DNA from: Phycisphaerae bacterium
Lineage (GTDB): Bacteria; Planctomycetota; Phycisphaerae; Phycisphaerales; SM1A02
Assembly (NCBI GenBank): GCA_002709755.1
Contig: PAQN01000048.1
Span: forward strand, 32,646-89,552
DNA length: 56,907 nucleotides
Reading direction: 5' to 3'
Shown piece after piece: positions 27,213 through 54,248 of this stretch. The notes beneath the pieces are model-generated. The model was given only the letters and a program-made list of their open reading frames with translations, was not told the origin of the DNA and made no database searches. The position numbers and the translations under genes are program-made. Every line of letters begins with the position of its first letter. The first letter of the stretch is position 1.

Positions 27213-28087
27213 GGGTAAGCGGACCCAGAAAACTGACTTACGCGGACATGTGTCTGCTCGGCTTCATGGCCGTCTTGAGCATCTGGGTGAGCCTGGAGGC
27301 ATGGGTCGACATGTATGGGCGTGCGATCGTCGATACGGAGAACGGTCAGGCGCTGTTCGCACCACTCGTCGCTCTCTACCTGTTCTGGGTGAGAAGATCA
27401 CGAATCCAGTTCATCGGATACAGCCCGAGCGTCGCGGGGCTACTCGTCATCATCCTTGGATTCGTCGCTCTGCAGTGGGGCATGGAATCGAACACGCTCG
27501 TGGTCTGGCATCTCGGCGCCATTTTCATGTTGATAGGAAGCCTTATCACGGTGATGGGAATGGAGTTCGCCCGTCAGTTCGGTCCGGCTCTGGTCGCGCT
27601 TCTGTTCATCATTCCAACACCGGGCATCGTCAGAATCACGCTTGCCGAACCGATGCAGGAACTCGCGACCGAGCTTACGATGACCGTCCTCGACGGAATC
27701 GGAGTCTATGCCATCAAGCAAGGTCTCGTGATACAGGTTGGGAATCCACCAATAGATGTCGCTATCGGTGAGGCCTGCAACGGGATGCGAATGGTCTTTG
27801 CGCTCAGTCTCGTTGTATTCGGATTCGTTTTCAGTGCGCCGTTTCGAACCGAAGTGCGGGTCGCACTGCTGCTTGTGAGCCCCCTCATCGCACTCTGCTG
27901 CAACATCATCAGATTGGTTCTCACGAGCGCCGTGTACGGTTTCTCGACTCAGGAATTCGCCGACTCGTTTCACTGGTATTCGGGGCTGGCGATGATACCC
28001 ATGTCCCTGATCATGCTGTTCGGGATCATCAAGCTCCTGACGTGGCTGGACATCCCATGCATGAGATGGAGGCTGGCGTTCGTATGA
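27209..28087 (+). CDS. xrt: Exosortase (transmembrane cysteine transpeptidase)
   Basis: An integral membrane enzyme that recognises PEP-CTERM tails and cleaves or transfers the protein at the membrane. The product is 292 aa with about eight hydrophobic segments. All three invariant catalytic residues are visible: Cys190 in GEACNGMR, Arg235 in CNIIRLVLTS and His255 in SFHWYSGL. The start is the GTG at 27209, which overlaps the previous stop as GTGA and has GGAGG five bases upstream; the longer frame back to 27038 would run inside the upstream gene. Unlike the proteobacterial enzymes with a fused EpsI part, the EpsI protein is encoded separately by the next gene. The known substrate candidate lies at 24125. 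Confidence 0.92.
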   Translation: MRVSGPRKLTYADMCLLGFMAVLSIWVSLEAWVDMYGRAIVDTENGQALFAPLVALYLFWVRRSRIQFIGYSPSVAGLLVIILGFVALQWGMESNTLVVWHLGAIFMLIGSLITVMGMEFARQFGPALVALLFIIPTPGIVRITLAEPMQELATELTMTVLDGIGVYAIKQGLVIQVGNPPIDVAIGEACNGMRMVFALSLVVFGFVFSAPFRTEVRVALLLVSPLIALCCNIIRLVLTSAVYGFSTQEFADSFHWYSGLAMIPMSLIMLFGIIKLLTWLDIPCMRWRLAFV

Positions 28088-48298: not shown

Positions 48299-50899
48299 TC
48301 ATGAACGGGTTCGTTTCGCGAAGGTGGTTCCGAAAACATCACGTCTGGTCGGACATGCGAGTCCGGTAAGAAATCCGACCGTGAAACAGGTCGTGGTGCC
48401 GATCGCGGCGTAGAGCAGACCGTTCAACTCAGTGGTGTTCTTGACGAAGAGAAGGACTCCGACACTCGAAACCACGCCGGCGAAGGCGGCGATCGTGCCG
48501 GGTCTTTTCGTGAAGATGCCGAGCACGAACAGACCGCACAATCCACTGGCGAACAGACCAACGATCTCGAGCCACTGATCGAAGATGCTCTCAGCGGGAA
48601 AGAACGCGAGAAGAAGGGCCGCACCGGTTCCGATCACGCCAAGCAACACGGTGATGACTCGTGCCAGAAGGAGTTCCTGTGATGCGGAAGAAGCCCTCGA
48701 ACGAACGGGCATGAGACGACGATGGAAATCGTTGATCAAGGCGGTGGCGGAGGAGTTCATGCTCGAATCGAGACTGGACATCGCGGCTGCGAAGATTCCG
48801 GCCACCACGAGTCCGGACAGACCCGCGGGAATCTCGTTCACGAGGAACCAGGGAAGGATCTGATCCGTCTTGGCGAGAGGGGCGAGTCGTTCCGGGTTCG
48901 CGTCGTAGAAACCGAACAATGCCGAACCGAGTCCGAAGAAGAGCAGTGAAGCGGGGATGGCGACAAGCCCACCCAGCCAGATCGCCTTGCGAGCGGATGA
49001 CTCGTCTCTGGTGGTGAGATAACGTTGAACCACGGATTGATCGGAGGCGTATGGAATCAGGTTGATGAATATGCCACCGAGAATCACGACGGGAAGCGAA
49101 GCTCGAGTGAAATCCCAGTCGAGATCCGCGATGTGAAGTCGACCGGCCTGATCCGCCCGTTCGTACAACTCGATCATGCCGCCATCGACCCCGGAGATGC
49201 AGGCGATGATCACCAGAATCGCACCACCCAGAAGAACGATCGCCTGCAGGACATCCGACCAGATCACGGCCTCGATCCCCCCGAGAACCGTGTAGAGGAT
49301 GCACAGGACACCCATGAGAAGAATGCAGAGGGAGACATCGATGCCGGTGACGGCGGACAGGGCGATCGCAGGCAGATAGATCACGATCGCCATCCGGCCG
49401 AACTGAAAGAGAAGATATTGAGCGCTTCCGAACAGTCGGACGGGAAGTGAGAAACGGCGTTCAAGGTACTCGTAGGCGGTGACCACCTTCAGTCCACGGA
49501 AGAAGGGGAGAAAGAGCCATGCGACGACGGGCGCCATCGCGAAGATTCCGAGACTCTGGATGAAGAGAGTCCAGTCGGTGGAGTAACTCTTCGCGGGAAT
49601 CGCCATGAACGTGATCGCACTGAGTTGAGTGGCGAAGATGGAGATCCCCGCCGCCCACCAGGGAATGCGTCCACCACCGAAGAAGAAGTCATCCGTTCCG
49701 TTCTCACCTCGGGCGAAATGAATCCCAAGACCGACCATGATCGCCAGATACAGGCCCAGAACCGACCAGTCGAGGAGAGTGAATCCGGGGACGAAATAGG
49801 ATTTCGTGGCGAAGACCACCTTCGATGTGCGCAATCGAGGACGGATCTCACCACCAGCCATCAGGTAACCATCATCATGTGGCACCACCGTGACCGTCAC
49901 CGGAACCGATGAACCGGAACCGGGACGTGTCGTCCATTCATCGGTGAGGACGTGATAAGCGAGCGTGTCTTGACAAAATCCGGGGTGGTTCTCCCGAAGG
50001 GCACCGATGCGATCGACATTCGCCCCGTCATCCCCACCAAGGACGGCGAGATAGGACGCCCCGACCGAGAGCGCTGGAGACGGAGAAGCGCTCGCCGCTC
50101 TTGGAAGAGGACTCAGGGCCGACCAGTGTTCACCGGGATGCCCGTCGGGGTCGTACCGCCATGCCTCTTGAAGGTACTCGCGTCGATGATCACTCGCACC
50201 TTGTTCGTTCGAATCGAGCTTCCGCAGACGACACCCACCGAACACGTAGAGACTGCCGCCATGTGATCCTGCAGTCGCGAGGATGCGACCCTTCCCGCCT
50301 GGAATGGGATCATGTCGGATCCATGACGAATCAAGATCACTGACCCCGAGGGACAGAAGCTCGTCGCTGGCATGACCGGATGGATCGATCTGACCTCCTT
50401 GAAGATAGATCACATCACCGACGACGGCTCCGGCCGCGTAGGCAAGTGGAAAAGGCAGCGGCTCCAGTGACGTCAGGCGAAGTGAACCATCGATCCATTC
50501 GAGATGAACGACCTGATCGAGATGCCCGTCTGGGTGTGATCCTCCCATCCAGAGACCGGACCCATCAGGAAGTGAGACGGAGACGCCGTAGGCGCATGGA
50601 CGAGAGAGGGTGACCTCGCATTCCCGCCAGGTCGCGTTCTCTTCGGAGAGATCGAGACTCAGGATTCGCCTGGACCAGCGTTTTCGAGAATCCCACCCCT
50701 CACCGTCGAAATAGGTCCCACCCCCGATGACGAGCCGACCCCCGACTTTCGAGGCGTAGGCGCCTCCGATGCCGTGATCCGGCAGATCCGGCAGGGAACT
50801 CCACTCGAACAATCCGGCCTCATCGGGGGTGTCGGCTTGAATGAGCGCGGTCGATTGAAATAGTGACAACAGGATGCATGCCAGTCGTGTTCTCAGCAT
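48299..50899 (-). CDS. Kelch (mutarotase-like) / sodium:solute symporter fusion
   Basis: Combines an extracytoplasmic sugar-epimerising or -binding domain with uptake. The product is 866 aa. A signal sequence (about 5-22) is followed by six kelch-type blades (about 30-360; GGAYASKVGGRLVIGGGTYF is the first), similar to NanM, the N-acetylneuraminate epimerase. About 14 hydrophobic segments of the SSS family then run from about residue 375, with GGGRIPWWAAGISIFATQLSAITFMAIPAK around 410-440 (described by position) as the sodium-site region. Fusions of this kind are known in planctomycetes. The natural substrate may be sialic acid or another sugar. It is divergent from the riboswitch-controlled gene. 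Confidence 0.85.
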   Translation of the reverse strand: MLRTRLACILLSLFQSTALIQADTPDEAGLFEWSSLPDLPDHGIGGAYASKVGGRLVIGGGTYFDGEGWDSRKRWSRRILSLDLSEENATWRECEVTLSRPCAYGVSVSLPDGSGLWMGGSHPDGHLDQVVHLEWIDGSLRLTSLEPLPFPLAYAAGAVVGDVIYLQGGQIDPSGHASDELLSLGVSDLDSSWIRHDPIPGGKGRILATAGSHGGSLYVFGGCRLRKLDSNEQGASDHRREYLQEAWRYDPDGHPGEHWSALSPLPRAASASPSPALSVGASYLAVLGGDDGANVDRIGALRENHPGFCQDTLAYHVLTDEWTTRPGSGSSVPVTVTVVPHDDGYLMAGGEIRPRLRTSKVVFATKSYFVPGFTLLDWSVLGLYLAIMVGLGIHFARGENGTDDFFFGGGRIPWWAAGISIFATQLSAITFMAIPAKSYSTDWTLFIQSLGIFAMAPVVAWLFLPFFRGLKVVTAYEYLERRFSLPVRLFGSAQYLLFQFGRMAIVIYLPAIALSAVTGIDVSLCILLMGVLCILYTVLGGIEAVIWSDVLQAIVLLGGAILVIIACISGVDGGMIELYERADQAGRLHIADLDWDFTRASLPVVILGGIFINLIPYASDQSVVQRYLTTRDESSARKAIWLGGLVAIPASLLFFGLGSALFGFYDANPERLAPLAKTDQILPWFLVNEIPAGLSGLVVAGIFAAAMSSLDSSMNSSATALINDFHRRLMPVRSRASSASQELLLARVITVLLGVIGTGAALLLAFFPAESIFDQWLEIVGLFASGLCGLFVLGIFTKRPGTIAAFAGVVSSVGVLLFVKNTTELNGLLYAAIGTTTCFTVGFLTGLACPTRRDVFGTTFAKRTRS

Positions 50900-50946: not shown

Positions 50947-50972
50947 TTCGGCGTCGCGAGATGTTTTCGCGA

Positions 50973-51103
50973 TGAATCCCCTGAGGGAAGGAACGCGGTG
51001 CGAATCCGCGACGAACGCGTCACCGTGATCGTGCCACCTGGTGCGAAAGTCGGGTCTACCTTCAGGTCGATTCGGATTCAAACCGCTCCCGCGTTAGGAG
51101 TGG
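50973..51103 (+). ncRNA. Cobalamin riboswitch, short form
   Basis: Ligand-sensing leader of the next gene. CCTGA (50980-50984) pairs with TCAGG (51062-51066), enclosing the core: GGGAA (50985-50989), GGTGCGAATCC (50997-51007) with its stem CGCGG/CCGCG, a GAC/GTC stem closing L5, then CACCGTGA. A very short P6 arm (GTGCCAC) and AAGTCGGGTCTACC follow. The hairpin at 51083-51103 has loop CGCGTTA, whose CGCGTT (51090-51095) is exactly complementary to AACGCG in L5 (51014-51019). This is the L5-L13 kissing pair that defines cobalamin riboswitches. The short P6 points to the Cbl-II type. The last hairpin is 17 bases before the ribosome binding site, so translational control is likely. Confidence 0.88.
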
Positions 51104-51129
51104 ATGTTCTCAAAGCGAAAAGGATACAA

Positions 51130-51648
51130 ATGTATAAAGCAGTTTTTGTCGCCTGCATCGCAGGAGCGATGTCGTTTTCTGTGACTCATGCCGACGTGGT
51201 CGATTCGTTCGAGATCGGATCGGGTGCATCGACAAGCACCTTCCTGTTCCAGTTCACGAACGGCAACCAGTACCTGTACGAGGTCAGTTACGACGAGCCG
51301 ATGAGTGGTCAGGATGTGGTCGAATTCATCATGAACGAACAGGCTGGCTACTTCGTGGCCGACATCGTCAGCTACAGCTTCGGAGACGTGCTCAACGGTC
51401 TGGGAATCGGTGATGATTTCGACGAGGGATTCGGAACTCCACCGGACTACCTCGACTACTGGCACTACTGGACGAAGGATGATGTGGTGGACGAGTGGGA
51501 ATCGTCATTCGTGGGATTCGGAGACCGAACGGTGACGGATGGATCCTGGGATGGTTGGGTGTTCAATTCGAACGACGCACCGGTTCCGGCTGGTGCCAGC
51601 CTTATCACACTTTCATGCCTCGCCACGACGAGAAGACGAAGACGCTGA
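51130..51648 (+). CDS. Small secreted Trp/Tyr-rich protein under cobalamin riboswitch control
   Basis: A 172-aa exported protein that I cannot assign to a named family. It has a signal peptide (MYKAVFVACIAGAMSFSVTHA). The mature part contains an aromatic core: LDYWHYWTKDDVVDEWESSF and DGSWDGWVFNSND near residues 115-155, with many Asp. The C-terminus APVPAGASLITLSCLATTRRRRR (described here as a motif) is a Pro-containing element, a short hydrophobic helix and an Arg cluster, resembling a PEP-CTERM tail. The ATG at 51130 was chosen because AGGA lies five bases upstream and the signal peptide begins here; an in-frame GTG at 50998 would run through the riboswitch and is rejected. Riboswitch control implies a role in corrinoid binding, uptake or handling. 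Confidence 0.8.
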   Translation: MYKAVFVACIAGAMSFSVTHADVVDSFEIGSGASTSTFLFQFTNGNQYLYEVSYDEPMSGQDVVEFIMNEQAGYFVADIVSYSFGDVLNGLGIGDDFDEGFGTPPDYLDYWHYWTKDDVVDEWESSFVGFGDRTVTDGSWDGWVFNSNDAPVPAGASLITLSCLATTRRRRR

Positions 51649-51680: not shown

Positions 51681-51713
51681 GCAGGCATCCGGTTTCCATG
51701 ACCGGATGCCTGC
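51681..51713 (+). terminator. Hairpin between the riboswitch gene and the DCC gene
   Basis: A perfect 12-bp GC-rich stem with a nine-base loop lies 32 bases after the stop of the secreted protein. The tail ATATAATTCC is not a clear T run, so it is a strong hairpin but an atypical terminator. The following TATAAT (51715-51720) could be a -10 box for the next gene. Confidence 0.55.
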
Positions 51714-51726
51714 ATATAATTCCAAG

Positions 51727-52131
51727 GTGCTCGAACAAGGCCAGAAAATCATCTTCTTCGATGGTGAGTGCGCGATGTGCAGTCGGTTCGTTCGTTTCTG
51801 CCTGAGGAGGGACACGAGACGAAGACTGAGATACGCACCGATCGGCGGGACCACGTGGGACACTCTCATCGAGAGAGTCGCACCCGGAGAGAAGGAGACG
51901 ATTCATGTTCTCACCGACGAACGCCATCTGGTCAGAACCCCGGCGGTGATCGAGATACTCGGGGAGATCGGTGGTTTGTGGAGAATGATCGCCACCGTGT
52001 TGTGGATCATCCCACGCCCCATTCGAGACATCGGATATCGATTCATCGCCTGGAACCGTAAACGCCTCTCGAAGATCACCGGAACATGCACACTCCCAGA
52101 TCCGGATGGGCGCGCATGCATCCTTCCATGA
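51727..52131 (+). CDS. DCC family thiol-disulfide oxidoreductase (DUF393)
   Basis: A small thioredoxin-fold-like protein with a predicted redox role. The product is about 134 aa. The family motif is FFDGECAMCSRFV, with a DGxCxxC pair near the N-terminus. The ATG at 51706 lies inside the preceding hairpin and is less likely. The GTG at 51727 is seven bases after TATAAT and would make the mRNA leaderless. Its stop overlaps the S41 protease start (ATGA). The partner and substrate are unknown. Confidence 0.83.
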   Translation: MLEQGQKIIFFDGECAMCSRFVRFCLRRDTRRRLRYAPIGGTTWDTLIERVAPGEKETIHVLTDERHLVRTPAVIEILGEIGGLWRMIATVLWIIPRPIRDIGYRFIAWNRKRLSKITGTCTLPDPDGRACILP

Positions 52132-54248
52132 TGACCGGATCATTTCGAATCGGGGCGCTGATCGCCTCGACATGCCTCATCGCGTCGTGCACGACGCCGC
52201 TGCCGAGGCTCGAACCGTACTCGGCTTCGCATTCGATGGAATCGGAACAGACCGTCTCGCGTGATGAACTGGTGTCCACCGGGAATCTCGAGGAGACGAT
52301 CGAATCCCTCCTTAAGAACCCGGACCCCGACGTGCGAAGGCATGCCGTTCACGTCGTGCGGATGCTCGACGACCTCGAAGATGAACGAAGATCCGCGATC
52401 CTGGAGATCATGAGGAACGAATCGGATGACCTGGAGATCGCCTCCAGGTGGGCTTCGGAGGGCGATGAAGAGGACAGGATCCAGGGAGTTCCGAATCCCG
52501 TCGAGATGCGGGACCGTTTCATCTCGGAAGCGATCGAAGCGGAACGATCTGGTGAGCTCGCGAAAGCGAACAGACTCGCATCCGTGGCGATGTCGATGGA
52601 ACTGATCGTCGAGGATGACGCGATCATGGACCGTGTGATGGAAAGACCATTGAGGATCTCGGCACGGAACACAGATCGAATGAAGAACATTCGAATGGTC
52701 GATCCCCGTATCGCGATGACCATGTCGGATTCCGAGTTCTTCGATGATTTCGAACCCGGAAACGAATCTCCGTCGGAACACAGATGGCGAACGGAGGAGG
52801 AATCGAGACATCGTGTCATGAACACCAGAAGGGTGATCGAATATCTCGATGATCTTCACGTCGATGAAATCGACCGTTCCATCGTCCATGAGTCCGGACT
52901 CGACGAAATCGTTCTGGTGACGAGGAAACTGATCGATGAGGGGCATCCCATTCCCGGGAAATACCTCGAAGCCATCGAAAGTGAACGATCGAGATGCGGG
53001 GAAAGGAGAACACTTGATCTTCTGCTCGATCTGGAAATGGCGCAAACCGAGCTTGCGGAGGGAACGCTGCCTCCGTCGTTCTCGATGAGGGTCTTCGGAG
53101 ACGGCGCGGCATCCGCTCTCGACGGACAGACTTCCGTCATCTGGCCGGGGGAGTTCGAGCAGTACACCAAGGCGGTTGGACGGGGATACCGAGGAATAGG
53201 CGTCCGGATCGAGGAGGAGATCGACGGAACGGTCGTCCTGAGGCCGACGAACGGTGGTCCGGCCAGGCAGTCGGGGATCAGGAATGGTGACATTCTGTTG
53301 GAGGTCGATGGTCGGGACATCGAGGAGATCGGCGCACGAGGACTCTCAGAGGTGATCGACAACGAGGGAAGAGAATGGATCGAGCTGCTGGTCGAACATG
53401 ATGACGGGGTCAGGGAGACGGTGAGGATCCGAATCGGTCCGGTCGTCAACGTGAACATCACCGGATGGAGACAGACCGGTCTGCTGCAGGATGGTCGGCC
53501 GACCTGGTGGTGGTTGGCGGATGATCGAAGACGGATCGGTTATCTGAGATTGGAACGTTTCTTCTCCGGTGGCGCCCATGCGGTTCGAACCGCTCTTCAG
53601 GAAGCGCAGAAGCAGGCGCTTTCCTGCGGGGGTCGTCTCGAGGGTCTGGTGCTGGATCTTCGATCCAACCCCGGCGGACAGGTGTTCGTCGCGGAGGAGA
53701 TCATCAATCTCTTCATGGGTGACGGTCCTGTCTTTCGCTCGATCGGTCGAGGCGGGGTCATGGAGACTGAATACGCTGATGAAAACCACTCGGAACTCGA
53801 AGGCATTCCCCTCGTGATTCTGGTCGACGAACTCTCTGCGAGCGCCTCGGAGGTCGTGGCGGGACAGCTCAAGATGAATGGAAAGGCCATCGTGCTCGGG
53901 GAGAGAACCTTCGGGAAGGGATCGATTCAAGGACTGATCCCCGCATCATCACCCGATTGTCTTGTCCGTGTCACGATCGGTTGGTATCAACTTCCGGTCG
54001 GTGGGGAATCACGGGGCGAATGGAGATTCGTGGATCGTGACATCTCACCGGGAGACTGGGGCGTGCAACCGGACATTCGAATCGCGGCCTCCGCGGAACA
54101 GACCCGGAGAATGATCGAAGCTCGATCGATGTGGCACTCGGGAGTCGGACTGGATGTGAGAATCGAAGATCACACCGAGGTGGAGGATCCGTCGGTGGAG
54201 CTTGCTCTGGGTCTGCTCATCGCATGGATCAACCGAATCGATCATTGA
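52128..54248 (+). CDS. HEAT-PDZ-S41 serine protease lipoprotein (C-terminal processing peptidase type)
   Basis: A membrane-tethered protease that trims exported proteins. The product is about 706 aa. The N-terminus (RIGALIASTCLIASC) is a lipoprotein signal. The next region contains a HEAT-like repeat (LLKNPDPDVRRHAVHVVRML near 50-70) and an uncharacterised helical part. A PDZ domain lies at about 350-445 (GIGVRIEEEIDGTVVL to IRIG) and the S41 core after it: LDLRSNPGGQV, the nucleophile Ser in SASASEVVAGQLK (near 570) and the general-base Lys in FGKGSIQG (near 597). The start is the ATG that overlaps the DCC stop. It is convergent with the haem dehydrogenase gene. Confidence 0.86.
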   Translation: MMTGSFRIGALIASTCLIASCTTPLPRLEPYSASHSMESEQTVSRDELVSTGNLEETIESLLKNPDPDVRRHAVHVVRMLDDLEDERRSAILEIMRNESDDLEIASRWASEGDEEDRIQGVPNPVEMRDRFISEAIEAERSGELAKANRLASVAMSMELIVEDDAIMDRVMERPLRISARNTDRMKNIRMVDPRIAMTMSDSEFFDDFEPGNESPSEHRWRTEEESRHRVMNTRRVIEYLDDLHVDEIDRSIVHESGLDEIVLVTRKLIDEGHPIPGKYLEAIESERSRCGERRTLDLLLDLEMAQTELAEGTLPPSFSMRVFGDGAASALDGQTSVIWPGEFEQYTKAVGRGYRGIGVRIEEEIDGTVVLRPTNGGPARQSGIRNGDILLEVDGRDIEEIGARGLSEVIDNEGREWIELLVEHDDGVRETVRIRIGPVVNVNITGWRQTGLLQDGRPTWWWLADDRRRIGYLRLERFFSGGAHAVRTALQEAQKQALSCGGRLEGLVLDLRSNPGGQVFVAEEIINLFMGDGPVFRSIGRGGVMETEYADENHSELEGIPLVILVDELSASASEVVAGQLKMNGKAIVLGERTFGKGSIQGLIPASSPDCLVRVTIGWYQLPVGGESRGEWRFVDRDISPGDWGVQPDIRIAASAEQTRRMIEARSMWHSGVGLDVRIEDHTEVEDPSVELALGLLIAWINRIDH

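Follow-up and report, generated by a model that had tools for sequence, protein, structure and literature searches.

A divergent cobalamin riboswitch is coupled to an exported planctomycete protein with a predicted transcobalamin beta-domain-like fold

Introduction

What purpose is served when a cobalamin riboswitch stands directly in front of a gene for a small exported protein that matches nothing in Pfam? The question is raised by a locus of a Phycisphaerae bacterium, within a 56,907-nucleotide stretch of DNA that we analyzed as a whole and refer to as the window. The initial annotation had proposed a short cobalamin riboswitch controlling a protein of unknown family at 50973-51648, and had suggested that this protein might be a corrinoid scavenger or surface binder, a new component of B12 acquisition in planctomycetes. 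Unless they make B12 themselves, bacteria in which no BtuB/TonB receptor is detectable still have to obtain it. We found no paper on planctomycete cobalamin riboswitches in the open-access library that we searched. The data presented herein are best explained, and in our judgment probably so, by an extracellular cobamide-capture protein that is made when B12 is scarce and forms one half of a two-part trap.

Results

The window leader matched the full RF01482 model (positions 1-149) with an E-value of 2.5e-7 in a 321-base scan and 4.8e-7 genome-wide, and this match at 50964-51111 (+) was the best that RF01482 gave in the whole source genome (Table 1). The proposal of a short cobalamin riboswitch was therefore borne out by a significant model hit. 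Default annotation is without this riboswitch because its score falls beneath the RF01482 gathering value of 50 bits; indeed, default Rfam thresholds over the window returned no riboswitch match, and detection required a lower threshold on a short stretch. Since the match scores 45.0 bits yet is full-length at this E-value, the window RNA is a divergent relative of RF01482 (clan CL00101) rather than a member at the curated threshold. A custom covariance model, R1, built from 28 homologous leaders including that of the window, gave the window riboswitch 82.1 bits and placed its core at 50975-51068. The controlled gene starts at the ATG at 51130, directly 3′ of the riboswitch. A further cobalamin riboswitch candidate of the source genome (G000:C31, 19.1 bits) received no confirmation from R1.

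Table 1. Features of the window and of the source genome (G000) discussed in the text
Feature	Position	Strand	Basis
AdoCbl-type cobalamin riboswitch (aptamer and P13)	50964..51111	+	RF01482, 45.0 bits
Helix P4 (CGCGG/CCGCG) with T-loop-like L4 TGCGAAT	50994..51010	+	RF01482 alignment; covariation of columns 20-22:34-36
P5/L5; L5 51016-51019 (CGCG) kisses L13	51013..51021	+	RF01482 alignment; covariation of 51016 with 51093
P13 hairpin, loop L13 CGCGTTA at 51090-51096	51083..51103	+	Centroid fold; 7-base-loop hairpins in relatives
Probable ribosome-binding site AAAAGGA	51119..51125	+	Sequence; about 5 bases 5′ of ATG 51130
172-aa exported protein	51130..51648	+	Homologues; AlphaFold2; Foldseek; PEP-CTERM in relatives
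Inverted repeat GCAGGCATCCGGT..ACCGGATGCCTGC	51681..51713	.	Just 3′ of gene; sequence
Exosortase (PF09721 match)	27272..28039 = G000:C48:59917-60684	+	E 2.7e-37
Exported partner protein	G000:C42:13131-14075	-	3′ of RF00174 riboswitch

The conserved core, the helices of the four-way junction and the L5-L13 contact are all present, and covariation supports them. In the alignment of 28 leaders, P3, P4 and P6 show compensatory changes; for example, column 20:36 pairs in 28/28 leaders as G-C, U-A, C-G or A-U. The initial annotation had read an exact six-base L5-L13 complement, and the sequences AACGCG (51014-51019) and CGCGTT (51090-51095), the latter in the loop closed by the P13 stem 51083-51089/51097-51103, are indeed there. 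In L5, 51016-51019 are paired to 51090-51093, and the GCG:CGC part is nearly invariant. The remaining pair, 51016:51093, is retained in 27 of 33 distinct hairpins (C-G in 16, G-U in 8, U-A in 3) against a shuffle mean of 16, and 0 of 20000 shuffles did as well. The kissing core of four pairs is real, whereas conservation does not extend to the outer two A-U pairs, which are probably due to chance. About four of the six proposed pairs are thus backed by covariation. A further copy of AACGCG lies at 50992-50997, in J3/4 and helix P4.

A terminator-like scan found nothing between the aptamer and the ATG of the window gene. The fold of the window leader had suggested pairing of the ribosome-binding site with a segment preceding the aptamer; as a general mode of control this was rejected because such pairs were no better at their own loci than after swapping between loci (mean z 0.02, 54 loci). 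Just beyond the gene the same kind of scan picks the inverted repeat at 51681-51713 on the - strand. This repeat is a possible terminator and as such suggests a monocistronic unit. Farther downstream on the + strand lie a DCC1-like thiol-disulfide oxidoreductase gene (51706-52131) and an S41 peptidase gene (52086-54248), in an order shared with the genus mate L232; for the former a GTG start at 51727 is more likely than the ATG at 51706, which falls within the inverted repeat. Upstream, a single 866-aa ORF (48299-50899, -) encodes both a kelch/N-acetylneuraminate-epimerase-like domain and a sodium:solute symporter; it may be a transporter of the sialic-acid type with a mutarotase attached.

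The pairing of riboswitch and gene is widely conserved. A homologue search across 151 genomes of the order supplied 30 loci (L007-L036), in 27 of which an Rfam model recognized a cobalamin riboswitch immediately 5′ of the gene and on its strand; in the remaining three the core was recognized by motif, which brings the count to 30/30. When R1 was run on 68 more planctomycete loci taken from the GTDB genome collection, it placed a riboswitch ahead of the gene in 66 (53-90 bits), and nothing else in those 845 kb scored above 15.5 bits; the 68 loci are not all independent, because the collection shares species with the R1 training set. Both exceptions (L100 and L104) sit at contig ends with no upstream DNA on the contig. 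At L034 and L035, two of the 30 loci, the short class is replaced by the long RF00174 class, and distant homologues from other families and classes are likewise equipped with cobalamin riboswitches (L112, L113, L115, L117, L119, L120, L123), among which RF00174 reaches up to 112.9 bits. The association therefore outlasts a swap of riboswitch class. Genes flanking the pair vary among loci, so the conserved unit is the riboswitch together with the gene. A conserved partner gene adjoining the window gene was looked for and not found, the DCC1 and S41 peptidase neighbors reflecting only synteny of close relatives.

These observations bear on the simplest alternative, that the adjacency is accidental or the RNA a non-functional relic, as its score slightly under the Rfam cut-off might indicate. 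Wherever a homologue has upstream DNA the association is essentially always present, whereas neighbors vary, and both helices and kissing pair show compensatory changes; conservation has already refuted this idea, and we assign it almost no probability.

The protein itself, which runs from ATG 51130 to a stop at 51648, begins with a signal peptide (residues ~1-21, ending THA), continues with a transcobalamin beta-domain-like core (~23-147) and closes with a PEP-CTERM-like tail (~151-172, VPAGASLITLSCLATTRRRRR), in agreement with the exported 172-aa product first described. The 30 homologues align across the entire mature domain, within which G30, G32, G85, G100, G102, W111, H112, Y113, W114, R133, G138, D141 and W143 are invariant or nearly so. 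A Pfam search gave no match for the window protein. PF07589 (PEP-CTERM, the motif type to which we also assign IPR013424) was matched by 10 of the 30 homologues and not by the window protein. Exosortase genes occur in the source genome, one of them inside the window (Table 1), and the latter encodes a candidate processing enzyme for PEP-CTERM tails. Kinship with the SCO2322 family (NF040672) was rejected for the window protein, which scored 15.6 bits against a curated cut-off of 85. The best member reached E 8.4e-5 with this model, most of the score coming from the tail and weakening after its removal, and the family link is a lead only.

An AlphaFold2 model of the window protein averages a pLDDT of 85.7 and reaches 91-98 in most core blocks. 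Its first eight Foldseek matches in the PDB had probabilities of 0.99-1.00 and the ninth 0.33, with modest E-values of 2e-3 to 2e-2, none below 1e-3. This set comprises 3u7z, haptocorrin (4kki), transcobalamin (7qbe, 7qbg, 5no0) and intrinsic factor (2pmv, 3kq4). TM was 0.71 when normalized to the isolated human transcobalamin beta domain 5no0 and 0.71-0.73 on isolated-domain targets, as against ~0.45 when normalized by the query, and sequence identity to the fold matches was 12-14%. We therefore predict that the window protein has the fold of the transcobalamin/haptocorrin/intrinsic factor beta domain. In animal B12 carriers it is this domain that touches the cobalamin, and with an alpha-helical domain it shuts around the ligand. 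The predicted fold thus points, independently of the riboswitch, to corrinoid binding. The description "unknown family" holds in that Pfam has no match, but not for the predicted fold, which is recognizable. A sequence-profile search of the PDB found no relative of the family, and a search of a viral fold library matched nothing.

The top single Foldseek match, 3u7z, has been labeled a putative metal-binding protein, and we take it to be a DUF4430 protein. This match would suit a ligand that replaces or accompanies the use of B12, such as cobalt or a different metal, or a product of corrinoid breakdown, instead of intact cobamides. Matches 3-8, however, are B12 carriers, a conserved Cys cluster is missing, and conservation falls mainly on Trp, Tyr, Gly and Asp besides a single near-invariant His, so that we regard such a ligand as very improbable beside cobamide capture. 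Comparison with planctomycete DUF4430 proteins by hhalign gave a score of 14.0, collinear over 101 columns and equaled in 0/100 shuffles, at a probability of just 1.9% in absolute terms; the Pfam model of DUF4430 (PF14478) matched none of the 30 members, nor any of 16 diverse members. A cobalamin riboswitch lies near 1 of 19 planctomycete DUF4430 loci, so the fold alone is no proof of a B12 link. At this one locus the riboswitch is an RF00174 element of 56.6 bits (L156:1914-2050, -). In L. rhamnosus, the gene of a DUF4430 protein adjoins rtpR (PMC9963975); a literature search for work joining DUF4430 with ECF transporters and cobalamin binding yielded nothing.

The source genome has only one other credible cobalamin riboswitch (RF00174, 35.2 bits, G000:C42:14189-14430), and it precedes a second exported protein, the partner. 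The partner carries dockerin-like doublets, its core is predicted to be a jelly roll of the CBM32/discoidin type (pLDDT 92.5), and a pseudopilin gene follows. This second unit of jelly-roll protein and pseudopilin is seen at G000:C42:13131-14075 (-) and at L131:7323-8141 (-). The partner is found in most genomes of the order, including 27 of the 29 that have the transcobalamin-like gene, and R1 places a riboswitch upstream in 28/30 partner loci. In two genomes (L189 and L190; G079 and G046) an RF00174 riboswitch, the partner, the transcobalamin-like gene and a pseudopilin gene follow one another in that order. In two others (L113 and L114; G445 and G463) the transcobalamin-like protein is fused to the partner, the C-terminal part being 34% identical to the latter (E 8e-29); in L113 RF00174 lies upstream of the fusion and a pseudopilin gene comes next. 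Directly 3′ pseudopilin genes were present in 10 of the 30 partner loci, and pseudopilins (FTLVELLVVI...CxSNLRQ) also occur directly 3′ of B12-riboswitch-controlled genes at L189, L190, L123, L118, L121 and L035. Across 61 genomes of the family, all inspected R1 matches of at least about 27 bits precede either a transcobalamin-like gene or the partner. Nine weaker matches (26 bits or less) were read, and we take them as false positives because none faces a B12 gene.

Might these be surface adhesins or matrix proteins deployed under B12 starvation, for example for attachment to B12-producing cells or algae, with no cobamide binding of their own? The PEP-CTERM-like tail, the carbohydrate-binding-module-like jelly roll of the partner and the scarcity of riboswitches near DUF4430 loci (1/19) are consistent with this idea. 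Set against it, the nearest solved folds are dedicated cobalamin carriers, fusion and operon involve one fixed partner, and the inspected riboswitch-controlled genes of the family are confined to the transcobalamin-like gene, the partner and pseudopilin. We consider an adhesin improbable, and favor cobamide capture.

Genomic signs of B12 physiology were also surveyed. We count as a sign of B12 need an ORF of the source genome that is of MetH size and includes a B12-binding domain. No TonB plug domain was detected in the source genome or in most family members tested, absences whose weight is limited by MAG incompleteness. Genes resembling BtuF, BtuC and BtuD adjoin one another in genus mates (BtuC-like by PF01032, BtuF- and BtuD-like as judged from sequence), and no strong FecCD match was found in the source genome, an incomplete MAG. 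R1 found no riboswitch at the BtuFCD-like genes of relatives, as in a genus mate (L204:2838-5493, +).

Discussion

Together, the riboswitch association and the predicted beta-domain fold favor the suggestion of a corrinoid scavenger or surface binder. Under cobalamin scarcity the riboswitch would permit expression of the gene, which the ligand would otherwise repress. The signal peptide would export the product, and an exosortase would probably process its PEP-CTERM-like tail, so that the protein would reside on the cell surface or within the matrix and bind cobamides there through its transcobalamin beta-domain-like fold. The window protein and the jelly-roll partner are probably two halves of one trap, comparable to transcobalamin, whose alpha and beta domains enclose B12. 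The co-regulated pseudopilin and a BtuFCD-like transporter, to which the cobamide would be handed over, could complete uptake. A fuller scheme, in which Phycisphaerales bring B12 in without a TonB receptor by means of a composite trap anchored through exosortase-type and dockerin-like tails and coupled to a pseudopilin, is one we put forward as speculation and hold to be rather unlikely as a whole.

Under that scheme bacteria would possess a counterpart in function, perhaps even an ancestor, of the beta domain of animal B12 carriers. Cobamide capture, if correct, would put the fold of the human carrier domain into a B12 regulon of bacteria and open the origin of intrinsic factor and transcobalamin to experiment. 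It would also provide two concrete, testable capture-protein candidates, linked to B12 through an almost perfect riboswitch association, for a large uncultured planctomycete group that is common in lakes and the sea.

Several known systems invite comparison. With RF01482 AdoCbl riboswitches the window RNA shares the full-length model match, core, P13 and L5-L13 contact; it differs in scoring under the gathering value, in L5/L13 bases (CGC:GCG) that depart from the Rfam consensus and in its unusual target gene. Similarity to DUF4430 is weak and limited to the collinear profile, whereas Pfam membership and regular riboswitch association are lacking. Like transcobalamin, haptocorrin and intrinsic factor, the window protein is predicted to have the beta-domain fold and to act outside the cell, and their two-domain layout is echoed by fusion and operon. 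In contrast to the animal carriers it has no alpha/alpha-barrel domain and stands alone with an exosortase-type tail; its partner is a predicted beta jelly roll, sequence identity is ~14%, and binding is here our inference. Bacteroides BtuG, BtuH, BtuJ (DUF4465) and BtuK provide riboswitch-regulated, exported B12 capture outside the inner membrane (PMC6143338, PMC8941943, PMC12751083, PMC13398666), and IPR013424 occurs as a C-terminal motif in 88 of 824 sequences of the DUF4465 family (PMC12751083). Riboswitch control and export are common to the BtuG/BtuH/BtuJ type and the window protein, which has no conserved neighboring receptor or transporter gene, and BtuJ has the beta jelly roll that is also predicted for the partner. 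The Bacteroides proteins, however, are lipoproteins encoded in btuB/TonB operons, whereas those described here come from single genes without a neighboring receptor and differ from them in fold and family. Bacterial surface B12 binders are thus already known, since the Bacteroides examples exist; what is new here is the predicted fold, the proposed anchoring and the apparent lack of a TonB receptor.
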